Assembly (NCBI RefSeq): GCF_026914265.1 | Contig: NC_069127.1 | Coordinates: 68,296,723-68,360,722 of the forward strand | Source of the DNA: Mya arenaria | Lineage: Eukaryota; Mollusca; Bivalvia; Myida; Myidae | DNA: 64,000 bases | Reading direction: 5' to 3' | Part shown: in pieces, positions 9,820 through 12,800 of the stretch | Numbering within the stretch: the stretch's first letter is position 1 | How the letters are laid out: the number at the start of each line of letters is the position of its first letter | The notes under the pieces: model-generated | Seen by the model: the letters and a program-made list of their open reading frames with translations, nothing else | What the model was told of the DNA's origin: nothing | Database searches by the model: none | Translations under genes and position numbers: made by a program

Positions 9820-12800
9820 ATGTTCGTTATTTACGTTGTTCTGACGCTGGCTCTAGTGGAAGTGAACGGATATGGTGTACGGGAAATGTCCATGGTGGAC
9901 GTCCGATTCGCAGAGATAAACCAGGAGTTGTCAGAGCCTATAGATTCGCTCTTTGAGAACTTCAAACACGAATATGGTAAGACATAAATCATGAATATTC
10001 TCTATACGGCTTGTTTAAAATAGAGGTTTTCACGTTTTGATTGAACTGTGTGTGTATACCACATGATAAATTACGTAATAAATTCTACATAGGAAGGCAA
10101 CATTTTGCTTCGAATGAAGACTTTAAACAAAGAATTTTTATCAAACAAAATTTATCACATGGTGTATACACACTGTTAAGCGCATCATATAATTACATTT
10201 ATAACTATGAATGCATTTTGGTGGCATTTATTACTAGTGCTACTGTATCTTATATTTTTATGGTAAGGTATATTTGAAGCATTAAAATACTATTTTAAAT
10301 CCTTCGCCATGGTATTCAATGCGAAATTCTGTTGTTGTTTTTCAAACTAGGTTAATTGAGTATGAGGTCCTAAATTGAAAACATTTTCCCTTTTATTTCA
10401 CTTTCGTATGAATTATTTTCATTATGTTAGAAGTTTTAACAGGCAAACAGTATTGTAAGATATCAATAAAGAGAAACACTGCACTTTAAACTATGGCGTT
10501 TTTATCAGGCAAGAAGTAGTGTTAGATATCAATAAAGAGAAACACTGCATTTTAAACTATGTCATTTTTATCAGGCAACAAGTAGTGTTAGATATCAATA
10601 AAGAGAAACATTGCATTTTAAACTATGGCGTTTTATCAGACAAGAAGTAGTGTTAGATATCAATAAAGAGAAACACTGCATTTTAAACTATGTCATTTTT
10701 ATCAGGCAAGAAGTAGTGTTAGATATCAATAAAGAGAAACATTGCATTTTAAACTATGGCATTTTTATCAGGCAAGAAGTAGTGTTAGATATCAACAAAT
10801 AGAAACACTACATTTTAAACTATGTCATTTTTATCAGGCAAGAAGTAGTGTTAGATATCAATAAAGAGAAACATTGCATTTTAACCTATGGCGTTTTTAT
10901 CAGGCAAGAAGTAGTGTTAGATATCAATAAAGAGAAACACTGCATTTTAAACTATGTCATTTTTATCAGGCAAGCAGTACGCTAACGCTTCCGAGGAGTC
11001 ACAGCGACGTACGATATTCGCAGGTAATGTTGAATACGTCAACGCCCACAACGACCTGTACCTGTCTGGAAAGACGTCATATTACATGGGCGTCAACCAG
11101 TTCTCTGATATGGTAGATAACATATGTTTTTAGTTAACGATCATAATAGATAAAGATGTAAAGTAGTGAAATAAGTTAGTTTGCTATACGTGTTTTTCTA
11201 GACTACCATCTACTAAAGGCTATAATAGAAAAAAAAGAGTGATGCCTAATATCAAGTTTTAAATTCAACCTCGTATTTTAAACAGATGGTAGAAATTCCA
11301 GTTTAATCTAATTGTATTTAAATTGTATATACTTCAATACTGGCCCATTTCACCGGTTTTAAAGGTGCTCGTTCACAGGTTTTGTTGGCAACGATGTTTT
11401 AAACATCGTTGAAAATGAGTTACTTTTCTTACTTTTATAAATGAACACCTAATAGCAACTGGCAGAGAATCGTTTGAACATATTGTTGTAAATTGAAGCC
11501 ATTAATCATTCAATCTCTAGCTGCGTTACAAACGTTTTTCGGAAAAAAAATAAGCATTTTCTGCAATATTTTCAAATAAATGTTATCACAAGTTTTTTGG
11601 GGAACTGTTTTATCAAACACTTAAACAAACGATTTCTTCACATTTCCCCCAAAATAGACATATGAAGAATGGAAGTCAATTTTCACAAGTCAGCAAATTG
11701 ATGACGCCACAACCAGAAATGACTCTATCTACCTGACGCCGGATAATTTTGAGGCCCCTCCCAGTGTTAACTGGGTGACAAAAGGATATGTTACACCAGT
11801 GAAGAACCAGGTAATGTTTCAGTCAAGTATCAATCATACGAGGACAGTTCGCAAAGTTCACTCACAGGCTTTGTATTTTTAAATATCATTGTAGTTATGT
11901 AATGTTTATATGGATTCTCAGAGTCAACAATTTCAGATCATTTAAAAACAGCTTATGTATATATGACCATGATCGTATTCTTGTAAACGTTGCTAAGGAA
12001 ATCAAGGGTATGGACTACGGAGCACCTTGAAAATGTGTTGTGTTATAAATTATTTGAAACAAAGTGTGCATGATATTAATTTCATACTAAGCAAAAAACA
12101 CATAAGGCAATGTCAGCCTTCGAAAGCGATCATAAGCGATATAAGAATGTTATGGGGTTCTCATGGGCGAAAATAGCGACGTTATAAAATTTAATACACC
12201 ATTCACATCATTTTCACATCAGATTGGAATGTGCAAATGGTTTCTCCAAATTAGGTATAATTGTCATTGAATTACTTGCACCACACATGGAGAGGGGGGC
12301 ACCCTGTCACCCCCCCCCCCCCCCAACCGTCAAGTTTACCATTTATTTCAAATTAGGAGAATAAAAGTAATGAAATATGCCCAAAATGCACTATTTCTGA
12401 CAAAAAATAGTTAAAATTGTCTTGAGGGCGTACCCCTCTACACCCGCCAACACTAACAAAATATATTTTGGTTCTGAGGAAGGGGTGCAAGTCAAAAGGT
12501 TACACCCCTAACTTACGCCCCCACTAACGTCGAATCCTGGACCCGCCCCTTTGCATAACGTTTTCAGTTATTGGCCTTATGAAGCACTTAGCAGGTGGTG
12601 ATGTACAGGCCATTTTGACTTAAATTTTCAGGGAAGCTGTGGATCATGCTGGGCGTTCAGTGCGGTAAGTTAGCGGAGTATTTCTTTCAGAACTTTCTCG
12701 TATTTACCAAATATCACATCTAAGTAGATTCGCAAGCCTGACTGCGTATGTATAAGTTTAAACTGCGTGAAGAGTTCGCACCACTTTCATATACATACAT

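Follow-up and report, generated by a model that had tools for sequence, protein, structure and literature searches.

In the bivalve Mya arenaria, a cathepsin L-like protease gene is shown, at the level of the genome sequence, to hold its own intron 1/exon 2 boundary in eight additional tandem copies; the boundary is single in the closest paralogues of the gene. The gene lies in a 64,000-nt stretch of DNA that was analysed as a whole (the window). The array is probably a border-spanning minisatellite, or 'mirage', that arose by tandem duplication and in which the true splice site would dominate. We place the probability of this reading at about 0.78, odds that overlap with those of a neutral rival of the same origin.

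The protease gene and its 66-bp array

The seven exons of the protease gene (Table 1) yield a CDS of 1029 nt that encodes 342 aa plus the stop codon with the frame intact. Pfam matches in the 342-aa protein are Peptidase_C1 (E 4.8e-74), Inhibitor_I29 (E 1.6e-18, residues 45-105) and a weak, overlapping match to Peptidase_C1_2. The translation contains GSCWAF, GHAAL and KNSWG, which we take to be active-site motifs. The C1 domain, the I29 propeptide and the intact frame place the product in Peptidase C1 as a cathepsin L-like protein. Compared with its two closest paralogues, the gene has a dN/dS of 0.46-0.59 (dS 0.17-0.21) that reaches up to 0.66 over exons 3-7, which indicates mild constraint. 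It was judged unlikely to be a pseudogene since the 342-aa frame is intact and dN/dS is below 1. The introns on either side of exon 2 are 993 and 545 nt in length. Part of the greater length of intron 1 is due to an interspersed repeat, presumably MITE-like, that has at least 41 genome matches, itself included, mostly to its first ~94 bases. A degenerate 19-bp array (AATGACTTCCTTAGCAACC) of ~33 copies lies 3' of the gene at 16419-17043, and open frames on the minus strand at 45780-47644 are reverse-transcriptase-like and were judged by eye to be retroelement remains.

TRF places the array at 10434-10979, with a period of 66, 8.3 copies, 91% matches and a score of 924. Each unit consists of the start of exon 2 (10 nt) joined to the end of intron 1 (56 nt), and seven of the eight units are 66 bp long, unit 3 being 65 bp. 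The exon-derived 10 nt are GCAAGAAGTA in most units, every unit ends in TATCAG, and the last unit adjoins exon 2, which starts with GCAAGCAGTACGC at 10970. The units were located by a CAG-containing pattern, and since they adjoin without gaps this search missed no copy. CAG is present at all eight decoys, so the copies carry splice signals. A preliminary description had claimed that the 3' splice site of exon 2 is copied eight times in a 66 bp array that ends at the true exon; TRF and the unit register agree on the former, and the position of unit 8 bears out the latter. That description had also defined the unit as the pyrimidine tract, the AG and ~12 coding bases. The first two components are present, but the exon-derived part is 10 nt rather than ~12 because further bases of the unit match the intron of the paralogue and not the exon. 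Its list of AGs, from 10508 to 10969, leaves out the first of the eight decoys, whose AG ends at 10442.

Table 1. Features of the window discussed in the text, with the last base of each acceptor AG
Feature	Position	Strand	AG end	Remarks
Exon 1, cathepsin L-like gene	9820..9976	+		ATG and protein start; donor GTAAGA at 9977
Intron 1	9977..10969	+		993 nt
Interspersed repeat with inverted ends	10044..10177	+		inside intron 1; arms 29 nt, 83% complementary
Shortened 5'-most boundary copy	10415..10452	+	10442	intron part deleted, GCAAACAGTA present; decoy AG 10441-10442; by eye against the L005/L023 native boundary
Array of eight head-to-tail units	10443..10969	+		in intron 1; 10 nt exon-derived and 56 nt intron-derived per unit
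Unit 1	10443..10508	+	10508	edge copy; retains GCAAACAGTA of the paralogues; has TT/GTAAGA; decoy
Unit 2	10509..10574	+	10574	identical to unit 8; decoy
Unit 3	10575..10639	+	10639	65 bp; decoy
Unit 4	10640..10705	+	10705	decoy
Unit 5	10706..10771	+	10771	decoy
Unit 6	10772..10837	+	10837	decoy
Unit 7	10838..10903	+	10903	decoy
Unit 8	10904..10969	+	10969	intron part provides the real acceptor AG 10968-10969
Exon 2	10970..11112	+		encodes the I29 propeptide region; 143 nt; donor GTAGAT at 11113
Exons 3-7	11658-11810, 12632-12664, 14215-14388, 14624-14789, 15106-15308	+		remainder of protein to stop
Donor-side array, arginine kinase	26830..27009	-		last exon of first domain ends at 27008; donor GTAAGC; intronic array repeats the donor; TRF rows 26848-26970 and 26886-27009

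Origin of the array

A search of the whole genome with the array (1.216 Gb in 18 contigs, very common words being skipped) found three places only, including the window itself on contig C6. The other two matches are single 66-bp stretches at C6:68638535 (95%) and C6:68591746 (88%), and a search with exon 2 identified these two loci as the closest paralogues, with 92% and 90% identity over 48 aa. The two paralogues are located ~330 and 285 kb from the window gene on the same chromosome, and their exon 1 is 96.7-98.0% identical to that of the window gene over 151 nt. The paralogues have a shorter intron 1, of 192 and 205 nt versus 993 nt in the window gene. All seven exons are equal in length in the three genes, and the shared 143-nt exon 2 and 1029-nt CDS support the real acceptor at 10969. 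The native boundary in paralogue locus L023 reads GTGTTAGATATC...TTTTTATCAG on the intron side and GCAAACAGTAC on the exon side and is present once; the window unit corresponds to that boundary sequence once exon base +10 is linked to intron base -56. Because both close paralogues hold the boundary once, the array represents the native acceptor of a single gene, duplicated in tandem, and the single 66-bp stretch in each of them argues that the boundary copies in the array are not due to chance. Decoys conserved between the paralogues were likewise not found, as the boundary is single-copy in both. A satellite or mobile element as the source of the unit was ruled out since the three genome matches are all at the boundary of paralogous genes. 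In paralogues L007-L014 the exon 2 border was not crossed by an array, and the intron ends of the distant paralogues L007-L009 and L013 look unrelated by eye.

The array probably began with a single tandem duplication that brought exon position +10 next to intron position -56, a junction that would have made an in-frame TAG as a by-product, and unequal exchange or slippage would then have multiplied this first duplication. Units 2 and 8 are identical, and unit 1 is the most diverged, with 6 differences from the consensus versus 1-4 in the other units; such concerted evolution in the interior together with exclusion of the edge unit is characteristic of mirages. The mean pairwise difference among units 2-8 is 5.4%. 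These units alternate between two types, and an alternation as strong is found in 144 of 5040 orders (1 in 35, p ~0.03), a weak test given that there are seven units. The alternation hints that the array grew two units (132 bp) at a time.

Alternatively, the copies could have been collapsed or falsely expanded during assembly. The array is known from one assembly, so the copy number could be a product of that assembly, and one BflGb6 haplotype was apparently aberrant in the amphioxus draft assembly (PMC3087553). The units differ, however, by substitutions and one 1-bp deletion that simple assembler duplication would not invent, and the edge unit is unlike the core units. We therefore regard an artefact as highly improbable.

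Putative nonsense decoys and the choice of acceptor

When read in the phase of exon 1, seven of the eight decoys reach a TAG at codon 4. Five of these have exactly GGC-AAG-AAG-TAG (AG ending 10508, 10705, 10771, 10837 and 10903), and decoys 10574 (GNK-stop) and 10639 (DKK-stop) reach the same TAG after other codons. Decoy 10442 is followed by 15 codons and then a stop, and all eight decoys stop before the real exon. The earlier claim of seven or more nonsense decoys just upstream of the real site thus stands, and the claim that most copies read GGC-AAG-AAG-TAG is borne out by the five exact cases and the seven codon-4 stops, with decoy 10442 as the exception. The nonsense-decoy reading is supported only in part, and a designed or selected origin of the stops is not supported. 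When the exon start of L023 is fused to its own intron end, with no array involved, the result is GKQ-stop-C-stop, which is the same stop. The seven stops may therefore descend from one event with no need for selection, and the immediate stops can be the outcome of one duplication in an L023-like ancestor that was then copied. The corresponding fusion for L024 has no immediate stop and reaches a later one after 15 codons (GKQYVLDVNKKNTAF, then stop). Among hypothetical duplications around the paralogue boundary, an in-frame stop is contained in 4538 of 6720 for L023 and 6157 of 6720 for L024.

Acceptors were scored with a home-made matrix derived from 22 related sites of the gene family (leave-one-out scores -12.8 to 13.4). 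The real site scores 5.54 and is tied with decoys 10574, 10705 and 10837 as the best of 76 AGs. Scores of the remaining five decoys range from -3.47 to 2.11, and the AG at 10267, outside the array, reaches 4.67, close to the true site. The three tied decoys are identical to the real acceptor in the 30, 30 and 27 bases upstream (30 being the maximum compared), and it must consequently be the exon side or position that decides among these sites. The exon extending to the next donor is 143 nt from the true site and would be 209-670 nt from the decoys. Where competing 3' sites are at least 20 nt apart, the upstream site is favoured, strongly so with short flanking introns, and this preference is weaker with long flanking introns or under exon definition (PMC9225289). 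Such upstream preference predicts some or much use of the decoys and counts against dominance of the true site. Intron 1 of the paralogues is short (192 and 205 nt), but exon 2 of the window gene lies between longer introns (993 and 545 nt). The true site would be favoured mainly because it gives the shortest exon under exon definition, the decoy exons being longer, and exon-side features probably keep it dominant with some leak. A degree of leak into the decoys is likely, which would produce stop-bearing messages that are probably degraded, and the length of the array may modestly tune the output of the window paralogue, but no adaptive role for the array is needed. With nine acceptors, three of the eight wrong ones being identical to the true site for 27 or more bases upstream, the gene offers a clean natural test of spliceosome choice.

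It has to be considered whether the array is instead a selected device in which the decoys compete with the true site, stop-bearing transcripts are degraded, and the array is kept as a dosage or inducible switch. The scores of the three strongest decoys, the stops at codon 4 in seven decoys and before the real exon in all eight, and the upstream preference among competing 3' sites (PMC9225289) would all agree with such a role. An L023-like junction, however, brings the stop at no cost, most of the hypothetical duplications counted above would contain a stop as well, and the intact AGs may reflect youth alone, as the 5.4% divergence of units 2-8 suggests. The array is moreover absent from both close paralogues, and amphioxus mirages are reported to leave splicing undisturbed (PMC3087553 and PMC3902484). 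A selected device is thus unlikely.

Another possibility is that a new exon or intron could arise from unit 1, with TTTTAACAG/GCAAACAGTATT/GTAAGA serving as a 12-nt microexon that encodes KQYC in frame. An acceptor and GTAAGA are seen by eye 12 nt apart near 10434-10460, and a mirage-to-intron model is given in PMC3087553. The acceptor of unit 1 nevertheless scores -0.51 versus 5.54 for the real site, and the spacing could be due to chance, which leaves a microexon extremely improbable.

Minisatellites and a second splice-border array

A survey of 75 other exon loci in the same genome covered 18 exon-2 matches (weak ones included), 29 Peptidase_C1, 19 ABC and 9 sugar transporter loci of ~3 kb each, some of them near-identical or overlapping; arrays with a period below 12 or a TRF score below 50 were left out. 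An array of period at least 12 is present in 43 of the 75 loci, and in 28 such an array has at least three copies. In none of the 75 loci does an array edge lie 15 nt or less from a match edge, a rough count in that the edges used are match edges and not exon edges, so that borders farther out are missed. The nearest array edges are 18 nt (L081) and 41 nt (L011, L028) away, the arrays in L081, L084 and L011 look intronic by eye, and the sole overlap of an array with a match occurs in L019, a weak match with stops. The array of L081 (500-1483) is based on a 21-bp unit, has 47.6 copies that are 96% alike and begins 18 nt past the sugar-transporter exon match; L080 contains part of it.

This abundance of arrays is what one would expect if the protease array were a fully neutral intronic minisatellite whose decoys are never used and in which the exon bases of the unit are incidental, and published mirages reportedly leave splicing undisturbed (PMC3087553 and PMC3902484). 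Zero use of the decoys would nonetheless be surprising when three of them do not differ from the true site in at least the 27 bases upstream. Complete neutrality is possible but in our judgement somewhat improbable, and we favour a mirage with a dominant true site and a modest leak.

The preliminary description had pointed to a second splice-border tandem array in the window, and the donor-side array in question is real at the level of sequence. The gene that carries it is presumably an arginine kinase. The array, a donor-side mirage, repeats TGGTAAGC-like donors, and 26830-27020 contains six GTARG sites, including the true donor. The exon of the second kinase domain begins at 25860 (minus strand), and 27008 and 25860 join in frame. 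The idea that the kinase 'donor' is a mere stop codon, given that a stop lies near there at the end of two related exons, was ruled out because the spliced frame to the second domain is open. It could be argued from the protease acceptor and the arginine kinase donor, 16 kb apart, that the genome repeatedly makes splice-border minisatellites and that copy number in the protease gene is a heritable, unstable dial, each nonsense acceptor lowering functional message. If that were true, some of the added acceptors would be as strong as the true one, and the output of one protease of a clustered family would fall. We consider this very unlikely.

Mirages in amphioxus and other known systems

Amphioxus mirages are minisatellites that duplicate intron/exon borders and are reported not to disturb splicing; they occur in the BflGb6 globin gene and Adh3, as well as in BflGb9, PGBD5 and TnC (PMC3087553, PMC3902484). 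PMC3087553 describes edge exclusion, differences in unit number and RT-PCR results suggesting regular splicing, and PMC3902484 states that the Adh and TnC mirages generate no aberrant mRNAs. Mirages consist of tandem units that span a splice junction, from intron end to exon start, as is the case for the 56 + 10 nt of the protease unit. By its anatomical features the protease array is a mirage, an already described kind of structure in a new setting. In BflGb6, as in the protease array, the copies comprise the 3' end of the intron and the 5' part of exon 2 (PMC3087553), whereas in BflGb9 the 3' boundary of exon 2 (the donor side) is duplicated, as in the kinase array (PMC3087553, PMC3902484). 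Homogenised inner units and an excluded edge unit are further features that, according to these two articles, amphioxus mirages have in common with the protease array. The systems differ in that amphioxus belongs to another phylum, and in that the unit is 150-160 bp in BflGb6 and 10-72 bp in Adh3 versus 66 bp with 10 exon bases here. For amphioxus, RT-PCR and haplotypes that differ in copy number are reported, while the protease array is known from the sequence of one assembly. The protease array, in turn, has single-copy paralogues in the same genome that show the likely starting state. No molluscan mirage was found in searches of the open-licence literature. The protease array may extend mirages from amphioxus to a mollusc, in which paralogues on the chromosome of the array still hold the boundary once.

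Like the protease array, the minisatellite in human IFI6 (6-16) provides one transcript with several splice sites (Turri 1995; PMC4526556). The sites in IFI6 differ in being donors, and the repeat units are said to be used as such, giving rise to three mRNAs. The IFI6 unit, of 12 bp, is shorter than that of the protease array. Variable internal tandem repeats at an exon-intron boundary have also been described for recent paralogues among human duplicated genes and were proposed to create introns (PMC2812944). The search in that study was for repeats within exons, in contrast to the intron-side acceptor array of the protease gene.
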